From assembly GCF_016938855.1 (NCBI RefSeq), contig NZ_JAFHAP010000008.1:434280-498279 (forward strand): DNA of 64,000 bases, in the 5' to 3' direction. Below the pieces are notes generated by a model. The model saw only the letters and a program-made list of their open reading frames with translations, had not been told where the DNA came from and did no database searches. The stretch is from Polycladomyces zharkentensis (GTDB lineage Bacteria > Bacillota > Bacilli > Thermoactinomycetales > JIR-001). Shown here one piece after another: positions 6,541-57,356 of the stretch (positions within the stretch are counted from its first letter, which is position 1; every line of letters starts with the position of its first letter). A program made the position numbers and the translations under genes.

Positions 6541-6600
6541 TTTTTCATCCCCCCGTTTATTTGATCCAATATGTCCCAGGGCGTAACCGGTAAATCCTGT

Positions 6601-6785
6601 CCAATCGCTTTGCCTGTTCGCTCCACCTGCATCCTGCAAGGAAGCAGGGCCGCTCCTGGCGGAGCGCAGGACGCGAGCAAAGTACGCTGCGCTTAGCGGA
6701 AATTGCCCGCGAATTCCCATTTCTGCGCTTCCCGGATCTTCGTTCAGCCTGGCTTGGTAAGTCACTGCCGGGAAACATTGTCCCT
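6601..6785 (+). repeat. Interspersed intergenic repeat, copy A (between spmA and spmB)
   Basis: About 185 bases closely related to copies at 25178-25350, 57165-57356 and, inverted, 30290-30445. Shared blocks include CGCTCCACCTGC, GGACGCG, AAATTGCCCGCGAAT, CTGCGCTTCCCGG, and CTTGGTAAGTC before CCGGGAAAC. No reading frame is conserved among copies. The repeat fills most of the spmA-spmB gap. Confidence 0.8.
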
Positions 6786-25066: not shown

Positions 25067-25177
25067 CTCCCCCGCCTCCTTTCGCACATGTTCAACCGCC
25101 GGGCGGTTTGATCCATCCCTTGGGAATACGTTGCCCATTGTCCATTGACCAGGGTGTGTCTGGTGAATACTGCACAC

Positions 25178-25350
25178 ATTGCTTTCCGGTGCTTACCGGC
25201 TCGCTCCATCTGCCCTGCGGGGAAGCAGATGATGGCCGCTACAATCCGGTCAGCACAGTTCGCAGGCAAAATATGCTTTGTCTTGAGGAAATGGCCCGCG
25301 ATTTCAATCCAGCGCTCCCCGAGTCTTCGTTTGCCTGGCAAAACATCGCT
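25178..25350 (+). repeat. Interspersed intergenic repeat, copy D (within the rib operon)
   Basis: Lies in the 343-base gap between ribE and ribBA. Relative to copy A it keeps CGCTCCATCTGC, GGAAGCAG, GGCCGCT, GAAATGGCCCGCGA, GCGCTCCCCGAGTCTTCGTT and GCCTGGC, but diverges after that. No supported gene is present in the gap. Confidence 0.7.
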
Positions 25351-25409
25351 ACTTACAGCATGACCAGACACGCTCCAGACCTCTGTCCATTTCGCATCCT
25401 GTCAAACAA

Positions 25410-27228: not shown

Positions 27229-27334
27229 TGAAAACATGAACAAGGATGACGCATAACAGTGTGCATAGCAAAACAAACCTTTCAGTGGAATTGGTTTATT
27301 TTCCCAATCCACAAAAAGGGTACACGCATCCCGT

Positions 27335-27472
27335 TCATCCTTCTCCCATCCAGACTCTCACTGTCGGCCCCGGAGTTTCACCGGATCCACCGCGAATTCG
27401 CGGGTCACGGGCTGAGGCGGAATCGTCCGCCATCACCGCCGGTCGGGAATTTCACCCTGCCCCGAAGGATGT
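27335..27472 (-). ncRNA. FMN riboswitch (RFN element) controlling ribDE-BA-H
   Basis: The minus strand shows the conserved RFN blocks in order: CTTCGGGGCAGGGTGAAATTC, CCGACCGGCGGTGAT, the variable stem GGCGGA...TCCGCC, CAGCCCGTGACCCGCG, a stem-loop CGCGAATTCGCGG, GGATCCGGTGAAACTCCGGGGCCGACAGT and GAGTCTGGATGGGAGAAGGATG (each written here in part). The ends pair (CATCCTTC/GAAGGATG). Binding of FMN would favour the downstream attenuator and shut off the operon. Confidence 0.96.
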
Positions 27473-27504
27473 TATCAAATGTTGCCTATACGGTTGTACT
27501 TCAA

Positions 27505-51329: not shown

Positions 51330-51435
51330 GCCCTTTCACTCCCTCACACCTGTATGTTGAAAAGTGGCCGACAGGTACAGACAACCCCTATTATACACCA
51401 AGCCGAAGCGGTGTCTGACGAAACAGGAATCGTCA

Positions 51436-51576
51436 GTGCGGGAAAGTCTGTTGACCCCGTCGGATGCACGATTGTTTCAGACTCATAGATTACGGGCGTT
51501 ACAGCCAGACGCTTTCGCCGTGGCCATTTGGTCGTTTTCAATCAATAACGCAAATGAACGGCGAAGTCTTATTTAA
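51436..51576 (+). pseudogene. N-terminal fragment of a GNAT acetyltransferase gene
   Basis: A 46-codon frame starting at GTG reads ESLLTPSDARLFQTHRLRAL then QPDAFAVA. It is nearly identical at DNA level to the first ~30 codons of the intact gene at 54895, apart from a six-base deletion and point changes, then ends in unrelated sequence. It is followed at once by a strong plus-strand terminator. It is a truncated partial duplicate. Confidence 0.75.
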
Positions 51577-51751: not shown

Positions 51752-51770
51752 GTTATGTTATAAACATAAC
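51752..51770. promoter_or_regulatory. 8-3-8 perfect inverted repeat upstream of the YcnK-like regulator
   Basis: GTTATGTT ATA AACATAAC, 22 bases before the start codon at 51793 and overlapping a TATAAA minus-10-like sequence (TTGAGT lies 15 bases upstream of it). The position fits an autoregulatory operator of the DeoR-type protein encoded next. Confidence 0.65.
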
Positions 51771-51792
51771 AAAATTCGGGGAGGGATATCAA

Positions 51793-52377
51793 ATGTTGCC
51801 CACAGAACGAAGAGAACGGATTCGCCAACTGATTCAAAAAAGGAAGTACATGAAGATTTCCGAACTGAGCCAAATACTGAAAGTATCTGAGATGACCATA
51901 CACCGGGATCTCAAACCTTTGATTGAAGAAGGATGGGTAAAAAAAACCCACGGCGGAGTGACATGGAACAGAGAAGCGAACACTGCGGCCAATACTGGAT
52001 GCGTGCTATGTGGTCGTCAACCGGATTCACGCTTGATGTACCGCTTGATATTGACGGATCAACGGATTGAAACCGCTTGTTGCAGTCATTGCGGATTGCT
52101 CCGTCATCGACAGATCCAAGAAGAAGTCTTTCAGGCCATGTGCCAGGATTTCTTGACGAATACCACGATCAGTGCAGATCGGGCTTGGTATGTCATGGAT
52201 ACCGAAGTGGATTTCCATTGCTGTCACCCCCAGGTTTTGTCTTTTGAACAGAAGACCACAGCCGAGAAGTTTGTGAGAGGCTTCGGCGGTATAGCGCTGT
52301 CGTTTTCCGAAGCGATCGACCGGGTTCATGATCAAATGAAACGAAACTCGGGATGCGGACGCAAACATTCTCATTAA
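51793..52377 (+). CDS. YcnK-like copper-responsive repressor (DeoR winged helix plus NosL-like domain)
   Basis: 194 residues. Residues 1-60 are a DeoR winged helix (MKISELSQILKVSEMTIHRD). The rest is cysteine-rich: C70-x2-C73, C96-C97-x2-C100, and FHCCHP at 141-146. It ends in FVRGFGGIALSFSEAIDRV, which resembles the NosL copper-binding fold. This two-part architecture is that of B. subtilis YcnK, a copper-responsive repressor. A GCGRKHSH tail adds further metal ligands. ATG 51793 with GGGGAGGGATATCAA. It heads a set of genes for metal-ligand-rich envelope proteins. Confidence 0.8.
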   Translation: MLPTERRERIRQLIQKRKYMKISELSQILKVSEMTIHRDLKPLIEEGWVKKTHGGVTWNREANTAANTGCVLCGRQPDSRLMYRLILTDQRIETACCSHCGLLRHRQIQEEVFQAMCQDFLTNTTISADRAWYVMDTEVDFHCCHPQVLSFEQKTTAEKFVRGFGGIALSFSEAIDRVHDQMKRNSGCGRKHSH

Positions 52378-52395
52378 AAAAGGAGCGAAGAAGCC

Positions 52396-52536
52396 ATGTT
52401 GTGGAAACGGATCATTTTCAGTACTGTTGTGGCATCGTTGTTTTTGTGTTTGACCGCTTGTGGCGGAGGTCAACATCATGATCATCATGAACATCATCAG
52501 GGATATGGAGAACCTTCTTCCTCTGTTCCCTTATAA
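52396..52536 (+). CDS. Small His-rich lipoprotein
   Basis: 46 residues. It has a lipoprotein signal with lipobox LTAC (Cys22), then GGGQHHDHHEHHQGYGEP. The mature peptide is about 25 residues with six His and one Asp/two Glu packed together, a likely metal-binding patch on the outer membrane face. AAGGAG lies upstream of the ATG. It is 18 bases after the regulator stop and clearly in the same transcription unit. No family recognised; metal identity is inferred from the regulator. Confidence 0.75.
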   Translation: MLWKRIIFSTVVASLFLCLTACGGGQHHDHHEHHQGYGEPSSSVPL

Positions 52537-52613
52537 GGTTTCTGATCCAATATCACTGTTCGCAAGGACAATGAGCATGTATACAAATCTGGACACATCA
52601 AGGTGGGATCTCC

Positions 52614-54014
52614 ATGTCCGTTACCGAACCGATAACAAAGGAAAACAGGGAAATGGAAAACATTCCGCATACGGAAAAGCAGTGGTATGCCGCCATTTGG
52701 CGTTGGCATTTCTACGCGGGAATCATTTTTGCCCCGTTCATCATTTTATTGGCGATAACAGGAAGTATCTACCTGTTCAAACCTCAGATCGAATCGATGT
52801 TGTATAAAGACCTCTACTATATCCCGGCAAGCAAACAGAAGCAAATTTCACCTTCAGAACAGATTGATCAGGTGAAAAAACGTTACCCCGATGCGAAAAT
52901 TACCCGTTTTACCCCGAGTTTCCAGTCCAATCGAACCTCTGAAGTGGGTATTTTACGGAGCGGGGAAATGACGACCGTTTTTGTTAACCCTTATAACGGT
53001 AAAATTGTTGGTGACTTGAATGACGACAAACGGCTTATGAATATCATTAAAAATCTGCACAACGGAGAACTGTGGGGCGGTACCTTTGGTAACCGGATGA
53101 TCGAATTGACCGCTTGTTGGGCTTTTATCCTGATCCTGACCGGTATGTATCTGTGGTGGCCCCGGGGTCGCCGATTCGGACAGGGGACGCTGTTTCCCAG
53201 GTTGAGAAACGGGAAACGTACTCTTTGGCGGGATTTGCATGCCGTACCCGCTTTCTGGTTATCAGGACTGATCCTTGTCTTGATCTTTACCGGTCTGCCA
53301 TGGTCCGGAGTGTGGGGAGACATGATCAATCGGGTTGCGACAGCCACTCATACAGGTTATCCTGCTTTTGCCTTCTCCTTCGGTCCGAAACCCGAATCGA
53401 CTCTTCCGAAAAAAACAAAAGACGTGGCTCCGGATGTGCCTTGGGCGGCGGAAAACCTGCCGGTTCCAACGTCTTCTTCCCAAGGCCGACCACTGTCCTT
53501 GGAGAAAGTGATCCAAATCGCCGAATCGCGGAATATCCATTCCGGCTTTACCATCTATTTTCCGGAAGGACCCAAGGGAGTTTACACGATTTCCAACAAA
53601 CCACAACGTCCGGAAGACCAGGCAACCCTGCACCTGGATCAATACAGCGGAAAAGTGTTGTACGATCTGCGTTTCAACGATTATGGTCCCTTGGCGAAAG
53701 CAATCTCCATCGGCATTGCTCTGCATGAGGGACGGTATTTTGGGTGGATCAACCAACTGCTGGGTTTGATCACTTGTGTGGGTCTGATCGGGATAGCAGT
53801 CATGGGGCTCATTCTATGGTGGAAGCGGAGGCCTCAAGGAAAGCTGGGCGCCCCACCCCGACTTCATTCATTCCATCTAGCAAAAGGGCTGGCTGTGATC
53901 GTTATCGCCTTAGGTCTCTTTTTCCCGCTGGTCGGTATCTCCCTGCTCTTGGTCTGGCTGTTGGACCGATGGATCATCCAGCGGATCCCTTTCATTCAAC
54001 AATGGGTGGGATAA
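52614..54014 (+). CDS. PepSY-associated transmembrane protein
   Basis: 466-residue PepSY_TM family protein. Membrane segments are near 33-55 (with the conserved WRWHFYAG), 164-184, 213-234 and 380-402, plus a paired C-terminal hydrophobic stretch near 425-458. Two extracytoplasmic loops contain PepSY-type units (DQVKKRYPDAKITRF near 85; LEKVIQIAESRNI near 300). Relatives occur in iron-siderophore and copper regions and some act as membrane reductases. Here its neighbours suggest reduction or handling of copper (inference). ATG 52614 with AAGGTGGGATCTCC. Confidence 0.85.
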   Translation: MSVTEPITKENREMENIPHTEKQWYAAIWRWHFYAGIIFAPFIILLAITGSIYLFKPQIESMLYKDLYYIPASKQKQISPSEQIDQVKKRYPDAKITRFTPSFQSNRTSEVGILRSGEMTTVFVNPYNGKIVGDLNDDKRLMNIIKNLHNGELWGGTFGNRMIELTACWAFILILTGMYLWWPRGRRFGQGTLFPRLRNGKRTLWRDLHAVPAFWLSGLILVLIFTGLPWSGVWGDMINRVATATHTGYPAFAFSFGPKPESTLPKKTKDVAPDVPWAAENLPVPTSSSQGRPLSLEKVIQIAESRNIHSGFTIYFPEGPKGVYTISNKPQRPEDQATLHLDQYSGKVLYDLRFNDYGPLAKAISIGIALHEGRYFGWINQLLGLITCVGLIGIAVMGLILWWKRRPQGKLGAPPRLHSFHLAKGLAVIVIALGLFFPLVGISLLLVWLLDRWIIQRIPFIQQWVG

Positions 54015-54039
54015 AATGCAAAGCAGGGAGAATGAACGG

Positions 54040-54168
54040 ATGAAAAATATTGACATGATCGTGTTAACTGTCTGGGTCTTAACCGTTGCGGTGGTTTTTG
54101 ACGGATGTACCGCGACGCACGAACATCATCACGGAACGAATCAGGCGACGCCATCCCCCATCATGTGA
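54040..54168 (+). CDS. Second small His-rich lipoprotein-like peptide
   Basis: 42 residues: a hydrophobic signal (residues 6-20), a probable lipobox VFDGC (Cys23; Asp and Gly before Cys are slightly unusual), then TATHEHHHGTNQATPSPIM. It echoes the peptide at 52396, with a His cluster directly after the lipidated Cys. ATG 54040 has AGGGAG upstream; an in-frame ATG at 54016 is possible. It lies 25 bases after the PepSY gene. Confidence 0.6.
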   Translation: MKNIDMIVLTVWVLTVAVVFDGCTATHEHHHGTNQATPSPIM

Positions 54169-54173
54169 TGAAA

Positions 54174-54214
54174 AAACAGCCCACTCCCCCTTATTTTGGG
54201 TAAGTGGGCTCTTA
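54174..54214 (-). terminator. Terminator between the copper-linked island and the convergent gene
   Basis: AGCCCACT and AGTGGGCT arms. The minus strand carries TTTTTT after it, the plus strand CTTATCTT, so it may serve both directions. Confidence 0.7.
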
Positions 54215-54216
54215 TC

Positions 54217-54693
54217 TTAATCAGTGGTCTGTTTTGAGGAAGTGGTATGTGGGTCAGAAGAATCTGAGCGCAGGGTTTCTTGTTGGATCAGCCGAAGGAG
54301 GAAGAGCATGATCACGATAAAAACGACATTCATGAATCCGACCATGAGAACCGGATTCTCCGGGACGACCATTACCCCTAGCATAACTCCCATCATCCCC
54401 CCCATGATCCCGTGCAACATACTATCCAGTGAGGCGACAAGATGAAAAGGCTTTCCTATAACATACCCCATTGCCATCCCGATGAGTACGGTATAGATGG
54501 TCGGTGCCGTCATCTGTTGAAAAAGTACACCTAAAACTGTGCCTATGAGGAGACTGACCATCATGGCAGATCCCATATAGACCTTCATCCCGATCGTGGA
54601 TGACAAAGTATTGCGACGACGAGAAACCGAAATAAAGAGATAGGTGGTGAAGCCCAAAACAGAGAGAACACTGCTAACGAGAACCAGCGTCAA
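54217..54693 (-). CDS. Met-rich membrane protein of unknown function
   Basis: 158 residues with about four or five hydrophobic segments. A striking methionine-rich helix lies near 90-130 (SMLHGIMGGMMGVMLGVMV, then LMVGFMN). Ends in a polar Ser/Thr/Asp tail. Methionine clusters in membranes often mean Cu(I) or Ag(I) handling, and the convergent neighbours look copper-related, but no direct evidence exists. The start is TTG at 54693 after GGGGGAATTGTT. Confidence 0.65.
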   Translation of the reverse strand: MTLVLVSSVLSVLGFTTYLFISVSRRRNTLSSTIGMKVYMGSAMMVSLLIGTVLGVLFQQMTAPTIYTVLIGMAMGYVIGKPFHLVASLDSMLHGIMGGMMGVMLGVMVVPENPVLMVGFMNVVFIVIMLFLLRLIQQETLRSDSSDPHTTSSKQTTD

Positions 54694-54894
54694 AACAATT
54701 CCCCCTTTCTCTTATCTTTTATTCTCCATGTTTATCTCATGTATGGAAAGAGGGAGTTATCCCCCACATCTTAAACCGTGGAATTTTGTGGGTCGTTATC
54801 GTTCTCGTTTCGTTTCCGGGTTCAATAAAAAGGAAACAACATCTGCACCGTCGGGGAAAACATGATATGATAGGCTTCAAAAAGGGGATGTTCA

Positions 54895-55674
54895 ATGGAG
54901 ATTCGTCTGTTGACCCCGTCGGATGCACCATTGTTTCAGACTGTCAGGTTGCAGGCGCTAAAAGAGCAGCCAGACGCTTTCGCCGCTACATACGAGGAGA
55001 CTGCTGCTCAATCGGTCGAACACGTTGCCAAACGTTTATCCCCCACCCCGGAATCATTTGTGATCGGGGCCTTTCAGGATAAACAGCTGGTAGGAAACGT
55101 GGGTTTCAAACGGGAAAAAGGCAAAAAATTGCGGCATAAGGCGGTTATCTGGGGTATGTATGTCGTACCGGAAGTCCGTCGCCACGGAGTGGGGAAAGCA
55201 TTGTTGAAAGAAATAATCGCTCGCGCCCGGGAGATGGAGGGATTGGAACAGCTGATGCTCACCGTGAACGCCGAAAACGAACCGGCCCGCCGATTGTACC
55301 GTTCAATGGGGTTTTGCGTTTTTGCCACCGAACCAAGGGCGATGAAGGAAGGAAACCGGTATGTCGATGAAGACCATATGATTTTGTTTTTAAACGCCAC
55401 GCCCATCGGTGGGCAAGCTGCCCGACTCACCGGGCCGGCTATGCGATGTGCACCCGATGGTCGATCAACAATGCACCTGTACACGGGTGCGGGAACCGGT
55501 GATTCAGGTGTGCCGGATCCGTCGGTCGATCCGAGAGCCGTACACAGAGGAAGAACGATCCACTTCAAAAGCGGAGCGAACATGAGCGGTTACAAATGGA
55601 TGGAAGATGGTTCCATTGCCAATCGTGTGATCCGACTACCGCGAACCGATTCAGGGGTTGTGAAAGAAACCTGA
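54895..55674 (+). CDS. GNAT-family N-acetyltransferase with unusual C-terminal extension
   Basis: 259 residues. Residues 1-167 form a complete GNAT domain: AVIWGMYVVPEVRRHGVGKALL near 84-105 carries the acetyl-CoA loop, and NAENEPARRLYRSMGF near 124-139 is motif B. Substrate unknown. The domain would normally stop after DHMILFL; here a further ~90 residues rich in Gly, Pro and Arg follow, with no recognisable fold. A lost stop codon reading into former intergenic sequence would explain this. ATG with AAAAGGGGATGTTCA upstream. Confidence 0.82.
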   Translation: MEIRLLTPSDAPLFQTVRLQALKEQPDAFAATYEETAAQSVEHVAKRLSPTPESFVIGAFQDKQLVGNVGFKREKGKKLRHKAVIWGMYVVPEVRRHGVGKALLKEIIARAREMEGLEQLMLTVNAENEPARRLYRSMGFCVFATEPRAMKEGNRYVDEDHMILFLNATPIGGQAARLTGPAMRCAPDGRSTMHLYTGAGTGDSGVPDPSVDPRAVHRGRTIHFKSGANMSGYKWMEDGSIANRVIRLPRTDSGVVKET

Positions 55675-57121: not shown

Positions 57122-57164
57122 TTGAGACTGCTGACTGTGGTCAGGTTGTGTCAGGCGAGTCGGT

Positions 57165-57356
57165 CCGCTTCGCTTTCCCGGATCGCTCCACCTGCGCCCC
57201 GCAAAGAAGCTGGTCTTGGCCTCTCCGAACTGGGGCGCGCAGGACGCGGATAAAGGACGCTTCGCTTAAAGGACATTGCCCGCGAATGGGTTCCTGCGCT
57301 TCCCGGTTCTCCGCTCGGTAGGGCTTGGTCAGTCGCTCTCCGGGAAACGTTGCGTC
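57165..57356 (+). repeat. Interspersed intergenic repeat, copy B
   Basis: About 190 bases aligned with copies A and C: GATCGCTCCACCTGC, GGCGCGCAGGACGCG, CATTGCCCGCGAATGGG, CCTGCGCTTCCCGGTTCTCCG, GGCTTGGTCAGTCGCTCTCCGGGAAAC. It fills the 420-base gap between the MFS exporter and the peptidase; no gene is supported in that gap. Confidence 0.8.

Follow-up and report, generated by a model that had tools for sequence, protein, structure and literature searches.

In Bacillus subtilis, the ycnKJI genes encode a repressor (YcnK), a CopC–CopD–YtkA importer (YcnJ), and a Cu(II) chaperone (YcnI). YcnK represses uptake genes, and YcnJ, YcnI, and CtaK supply copper to heme-copper oxidases; the 2026 study of this system reports no reductase known to go with YcnJ and no homolog of CcoG in Firmicutes such as B. 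subtilis (PMC13344008). In Bordetella, the PepSY_TM protein CrpH—encoded in B. pertussis in the cruR-crtA-crpH operon—supports heme-copper oxidases, and its invariant histidine is required (PMC13038864). How Cu(II) is reduced for oxidase assembly in gram-positive bacteria is an open question. Here we describe a five-gene island in a 64,000-nucleotide (nt) stretch (the window, whose positions are used throughout) of contig C8 in a 3.3-Mb genome of the class Bacilli, G000, whose same-order relatives include Lihuaxuella. It consists of a regulator (REG), a micro-lipoprotein (LPP1), a PepSY_TM protein (PEPSY), a second small peptide (LPP2), and a methionine-rich membrane protein (MET). A preliminary description had proposed a copper-handling island, and the comparative neighborhoods of REG, PEPSY, and MET support that proposal; the five open reading frames (ORFs) and the perfect inverted repeat that it listed were all recovered in place. 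Comparative context strongly supports a role in copper handling, with a YcnK-type regulator in control and a PepSY_TM protein as candidate reductase. The island is probably an operon under YcnK-type repression, expressed in copper starvation, whose products would capture and reduce extracytoplasmic Cu(II) and so feed heme-copper oxidases.

Comparison with Described Systems

Like ycnKJI, the window locus places a DeoR/NosL-type repressor first and joins to it an extracytoplasmic metal-binding part and a membrane partner, with a predicted role in oxidase copper supply; unlike ycnKJI, it has a PepSY_TM protein and a micro-lipoprotein in place of ycnJ and ycnI. The absence of ycnJ and ycnI types from the locus was already part of the preliminary description and holds here; YcnI (PF07987) is also absent from the whole of G000, the B. 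subtilis control being positive, and separate CopC and CopD genes are present on C8 at about 16–17 kb. With CrpH the island shares a PepSY_TM protein bearing invariant heme-type histidines, a predicted copper-starvation operon, and a putative oxidase link. It differs in being gram-positive, in having no TonB receptor, and in carrying a YcnK-type regulator rather than CruR; PEPSY is likened to CrpH by family and context, not by placement in the CrpH sequence cluster.

Two further systems bear on individual genes. As in CtaK (YtkA)/SCO assembly of the CuA site in Bacillus, a membrane-anchored lipoprotein stands beside REG and PEPSY, and most REG-linked copies carry histidines after the lipid-bearing cysteine. 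Unlike CtaK, LPP1 has no YtkA domain, and G000 encodes a separate CtaK–SCO1 pair on contig C10. FoxB, the siderophore reductase of Pseudomonas aeruginosa (PDB 7abw), resembles PEPSY in fold and in four aligned histidines but is distant in sequence, and PEPSY has no iron–siderophore context at the neighborhoods inspected. Copper-supply operons of the ycnKJI/CtaK kind are already known, and the island adds a variant to them. No paper in the literature searched mentions PepSY together with YtkA.

Regulator and Candidate Operator

REG (51793..52377, + strand; 194 amino acids, aa) matches HTH_DeoR (PF08220; 4e-15) and NosL (PF05573; 1.4e-5), both over the Pfam cut-off, and its orthologs lie beside copper genes, in agreement with the DeoR/NosL-like, YcnK-like identity first given to it. 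Eight residues (C70, C73, C96, C97, H99, C100, C143, and C144) are invariant among 34 REG sequences; they would fit a metal site and are no proof of one. Orthologs occur in 15 of the 42 genomes of the order and, across the class, in 35 of the 399 genomes sampled.

Neighbors were mapped in 34 REG loci with a panel of copper proteins drawn from those same loci, the panel identities being verified by Pfam as YtkA, SCO1, DUF1775/YcnI, and CtaG. A YtkA lipoprotein is encoded among the genes that follow REG in 14 loci, often with SCO1. CopC/D lies downstream in eight, seven of which also carry YcnI as in B. subtilis ycnKJI, and PEPSY lies downstream in four; in some other loci CtaG or CopCD/YcnI is found upstream. 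Orthologs of 35–50% identity head ycnJ-ycnI operons in L106, L107, L108, L111, L116, L118, and L119. A PDB sequence search with REG returned no match, and a contig scan with REG alone as query confirmed no relatives. Together, the domains, invariant residues, and copper-supply neighbors argue that REG is a member of the YcnK family whose partners are copper-supply genes.

The inverted repeat GTTATGTTATAAACATAAC (51752..51770; perfect 8-3-8, 19 nt) ends 22 nt before the REG ATG, which is itself preceded by a good Shine–Dalgarno sequence, and it overlaps an extended −10-like element, TGTTATAA. The sister species (L028) keeps its core, TGTTATAAACATAACA, and L043 has a palindrome like it, TGATGTTATAACATCA, at the corresponding position. 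Several other REG upstream regions carry GTTATAA at the repeat position without a perfect palindrome; we therefore regard GTTATGTTATAAACATAAC as a good candidate, at the level of sequence, for the REG operator.

The PepSY_TM Protein and Its Neighborhoods

PEPSY (52614..54014, + strand; 466 aa) has the profile match (PF03929; E 1.3e-75), transmembrane helices, and four heme-type histidines that define the PepSY_TM family. H32, H149, H209, H340, and H371 are invariant in 18 orthologs, and all of these except H340 align with the histidine motifs of FoxB in a HMMER alignment. A sequence search found FoxB (7abw) only as a distant relative (25.8 bits), and an AlphaFold2 model of PEPSY (predicted local distance difference test score, pLDDT, 77) gave FoxB as its top Foldseek match (E 4e-13). 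PEPSY is a candidate heme-dependent Cu(II) reductase.

Relatives of PEPSY at E 1e-80 or better occur in 72 of the 399 genomes of the class. Among 42 named Bacilli loci, a YtkA-type lipoprotein gene lies directly downstream in 30, REG lies directly upstream in eight (e.g., Rossellomorea, Brevibacillus laterosporus, and Paenibacillus agilis), and a MET homolog lies directly downstream in three, all Paenibacillus. For the Pseudomonas homologs (~40% identity), a TonB-dependent copper receptor adjoins in 32 of 35 loci and a PCuAC copper-chaperone gene is near in 35 of 35; the receptor is TIGR01778 (E ~1e-293; two tested). The Bacilli and Pseudomonas neighborhoods together indicate that copper accompanies this PepSY_TM clade across phyla. 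No iron genes were recognized at the PEPSY neighborhoods inspected.

In nearly all of the Pseudomonas loci (L185–L225), a PepSY_TM gene stands beside an OprC-type TIGR01778 copper receptor and a PCuAC gene. Papers on PepSY_TM describe CrtA-type receptors, whereas the nearest Pseudomonas relatives of PEPSY have the OprC type; the CrtA paper places CrtA in a cluster apart from OprC.

Within the order, YcnI (8 genomes) and PEPSY at no less than 50% identity (15 genomes) never co-occur among the 42 genomes (hypergeometric P ~0.02, which ignores phylogeny), and two genomes with a PepSY protein of 32–33% identity do carry YcnI. Because of both points, mutual exclusion of YcnI and PEPSY is only suggestive. 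G000 also holds a second PEPSY copy (L002; G000:C9:17835-18761), which is 61% identical, is missing the first 154 residues and two histidines, and is probably a pseudogene.

Micro-lipoproteins

LPP1 (52396..52536, + strand; 46 aa) begins with a K/R-containing n-region and a hydrophobic stretch that ends in LTAC, in keeping with the lipobox pattern [LVI][ASTVI][GAS]C, and its mature part, CGGGQHHDHHEHHQGYGEPSSSVPL, contains HHDHHEHH. Relatives have GTAC or GSAC, relaxed at −3. Four other genomes of the order encode proteins of this type, 36–48 aa long and His-rich in the tail, and one further copy is frameshifted. The counterpart lies between REG and PEPSY in G012 (MKRLFLGLLVGMVLLTGTACSSDSNHKHHKNHENHEHH) and G006 (MIKKWSIVLLSVGLLLVGSACSSDSDHKNQENHEHH); that of G011 (MLKRHLTFSLVLIGLLIMGTACSSSTDSNHQNHMNHKDHENHENHKNH) precedes PEPSY at a distance from REG, and that of the sister species G002, 93% identical, follows REG. 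These orthologs confirm the His-rich 46-aa lipoprotein of the preliminary description. The G000 and G002 genes differ at 6 of 141 bases and keep an identical His motif, although G002 has no PEPSY. All five open copies retain the signal peptide, the AC end of the lipobox, and the His tail, with identities of 25–34% once the sister pair is set aside. The Lihuaxuella thermophila (G026) copy is out of frame at an A8 run, a frameshift that may be real or an assembly error. A pattern search of 80 named loci found no open micro-lipoprotein near PEPSY, and the frameshifted Lihuaxuella copy was seen there by eye.

LPP2 (54016 or 54040 to 54168, + strand; 50 or 42 aa) has a hydrophobic segment, FDG before the presumptive lipid cysteine, and HEHHH. 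It occupies the position after PEPSY where most Bacilli have a YtkA lipoprotein, and it shares with LPP1 an 18-nt stretch coding for HEHH(Q/H)G. The 42-aa reading frame that had been proposed as a second lipoprotein is present; its status as a lipoprotein gene is doubtful because the lipobox is poor, departing from the pattern at −3 and −2, and no ortholog was found. Thus, of the two peptides first singled out, LPP1 is open in four relatives and out of frame in G026, and no counterpart of LPP2 was found.

When short ORFs were screened for a signal peptide, a cysteine, and a His-rich tail (L/V/I/F/M/A at −3), LPP1 and LPP2 were the only ones in the window to qualify, and mononucleotide-shuffled windows gave none. 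Over 0.9 Mb of loci (overlaps counted), a relaxed scan admitting GTAC and GSAC found only genes adjoining those of REG or PEPSY type. Since shuffled windows yield none and real matches are confined to REG and PEPSY neighbors, the pattern is not a product of chance. The preliminary description knew of no family for the small lipoproteins, and neither LPP1 nor LPP2 matches any Pfam or NCBIfam family; the YtkA domain (PF13115) has no match in either protein, which are only 46–50 aa long, and no remnant of it follows the micro-lipoproteins. Judged by its conserved features, LPP1 represents a genuine, diverged family of micro-lipoproteins.

In most relatives, the place of LPP1 is taken by a YtkA lipoprotein whose linker is His-rich: 11 of 14 tabulated YtkA lipoproteins have 1 to 5 histidines within the first 40 residues from the lipid cysteine. 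We infer that LPP1 corresponds to the anchor-plus-linker module of these proteins minus the folded domain, by domain loss or gain. On this comparison, the window locus is a variant in which a micro-lipoprotein replaces the YtkA lipoprotein. The suggestion of an undescribed variant stands to that extent; regulator–PepSY–YtkA operons occur in many Bacilli, so the set is less isolated than it first appeared.

The Methionine-Rich Membrane Protein and Island History

MET (54693..54217, − strand; 158 aa), convergent to REG-LPP1-PEPSY-LPP2, is the small Met-rich membrane protein of the preliminary description, with a Met/Gly-rich helix, MLHGIMGGMMGVMLGVM. Pfam and NCBIfam hold no family for it, its Met-rich domain having no Pfam model. 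Relatives occur in 23 of the 42 genomes of the order and include Cupredoxin_1 fusions, the family being often fused to cupredoxin: MET-family proteins run into cupredoxin-like domains in L071 (1054–1923) and L079 (1477–2280), both Pfam-confirmed, and in L073 (1471–2343). The homolog in L079 adjoins CsoR-like and CopZ-like genes, and another lies within the REG cluster of L105. From these contexts, MET appears to belong with copper as a co-located membrane protein.

LPP1 starts 18 nt after REG, PEPSY 77 nt after LPP1, and LPP2 1 nt after PEPSY (or at ATG 54040). A probable terminator hairpin read from the sequence, GCCCACT...AGTGGGC (54169..54216), is shared by the convergent LPP2 and MET; it is not in the hairpin scan list, for which the loop limit was 8 nt.

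In the sister genome G002, REG, LPP1, and MET are on a different contig and in a rearranged order (MET segment, 66 nt, REG segment; L028). They adjoin CopC/D and YcnI there, and of PEPSY only a trace of the start (MSVTE) is left. The GNAT–NUDIX locus of G002 lacks the island and has 222 nt in its place (L227). On the side away from the GNAT gene, the island in the window is bordered by a degenerate copy of that gene's 5′ end (51421..51520, + strand; 75% identical), which forms a direct repeat with 54880–54985. We infer that the cassette moved within the genus, perhaps via a circular form. Adjacency of REG, PEPSY, and YtkA recurs in Bacilli, and REG, LPP1, and MET are permuted without PEPSY in G002.

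Proposed Function and Alternatives

Joining the B. subtilis findings on YcnK, YcnJ, and CtaK with those on Bordetella CrpH leads us to read the window locus as a capture-and-reduce module. Copper repression, metal binding, reduction, and the order of transfer are projected here from the observed genes, domains, conserved residues, fold match, and conserved neighborhood. By homology, REG would keep REG-LPP1-PEPSY(-LPP2) repressed while the copper supply suffices and derepress them on copper starvation. LPP1, lipid-anchored with a tail of closely spaced histidines, would collect Cu(II) at the external surface of the cytoplasmic membrane; the preliminary description had spoken of the outer membrane face, but an outer membrane does not apply to a gram-positive organism (Bacilli), in which the peptides would sit on the cytoplasmic membrane and point outward. 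PEPSY, FoxB-like with heme-ligating histidines, would move electrons across the membrane and convert Cu(II) to Cu(I), which could then pass to an importer, for which G000 has CopC and CopD genes elsewhere, or to CtaK/SCO chaperones that load heme-copper oxidases.

Placed directly under a YcnK-type regulator, and adjoining CtaK-type lipoproteins in many Bacilli, a PepSY_TM gene offers a concrete, testable candidate for a cupric reductase. The micro-lipoproteins would rank with the smallest lipoproteins that handle metal, and annotation easily overlooks them. A more specific version, held tentatively and with more doubt than confidence, is that 36–48-aa micro-lipoproteins, pared down to a lipid anchor and a short His-repeat tail, are Cu(II) donors to a dedicated PepSY_TM cupric reductase under YcnK, replacing the YcnI/YcnJ route. 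If this version is true, it would provide the cupric reductase missing from the B. subtilis work, together with one of the smallest lipoproteins for copper.

Several observations weigh against the capture-and-reduce reading. Gene context is not function. PepSY_TM enzymes of demonstrated activity reduce ferrisiderophores, and the four PEPSY histidines are common to FoxB and so cannot separate copper from iron. Many genomes of the order have PEPSY without REG or any lipoprotein nearby, and LPP2 is not conserved, no ortholog being found in L035 or the other loci scanned. Because G002 retains REG and LPP1 with PEPSY lost, LPP1 and PEPSY are separable. For CrpH itself, copper reduction is put forward by the authors only as a proposal (PMC13038864).

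PEPSY could instead be a ferric (siderophore) reductase like FoxB or FpvG with a copper-type regulator incidentally beside it; FoxB is the sole solved relative and shares the heme histidines. We consider this improbable: FoxB is a remote match, and where iron genes went unrecognized at the inspected loci, the neighbors were the YcnK-type regulator, YtkA, SCO1, the copper receptor, and PCuAC. It is unlikely, if less so, that the micro-lipoproteins are decaying stubs of YtkA lipoproteins and that only the regulator and PEPSY matter. Their position in the YtkA slot, their similarity to the lipobox and His-rich linker of REG-associated YtkA lipoproteins, the frameshift in Lihuaxuella, and the poor lipobox and missing orthologs of LPP2 would all suit decay; the retained signal peptide, AC end, and His tail of five diverged open copies, the lack of any domain remnant, and the unchanged His motif in G002 after loss of PEPSY speak for maintenance.

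An operon for defense against copper excess, by outside binding and detoxification rather than acquisition, would likewise make use of His-rich extracytoplasmic peptides, which can sequester metal, and one MET homolog does adjoin CsoR- and CopZ-like genes. Such a role seems quite unlikely, as YcnK of B. subtilis represses uptake genes (PMC13344008), neither a P-type ATPase nor a multicopper oxidase was seen at the locus, and by our own reasoning an external Cu(II) reductase would be expected to increase toxicity. Poly-His tails are not metal-specific, so the peptides could bind Zn or Ni and serve a different pathway; the placement of LPP1 between a YcnK-type regulator and PEPSY, in a slot of a copper-chaperone family, makes this very unlikely. 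Overall, the earlier interpretation is partly supported.

Other Features of the Window

The sole Rfam match in the window is a flavin mononucleotide (FMN) riboswitch (RF00050; 112.6 bits; 27334–27473, − strand). Similar stretches of ~180 nt lie at 6583–6748, 25151–25380, and 57143–57318 of the window and at 188–366 and 3565–3779 of L028; they are 72–77% identical between the window and L028 and possibly form a dispersed intergenic repeat family of the genus.

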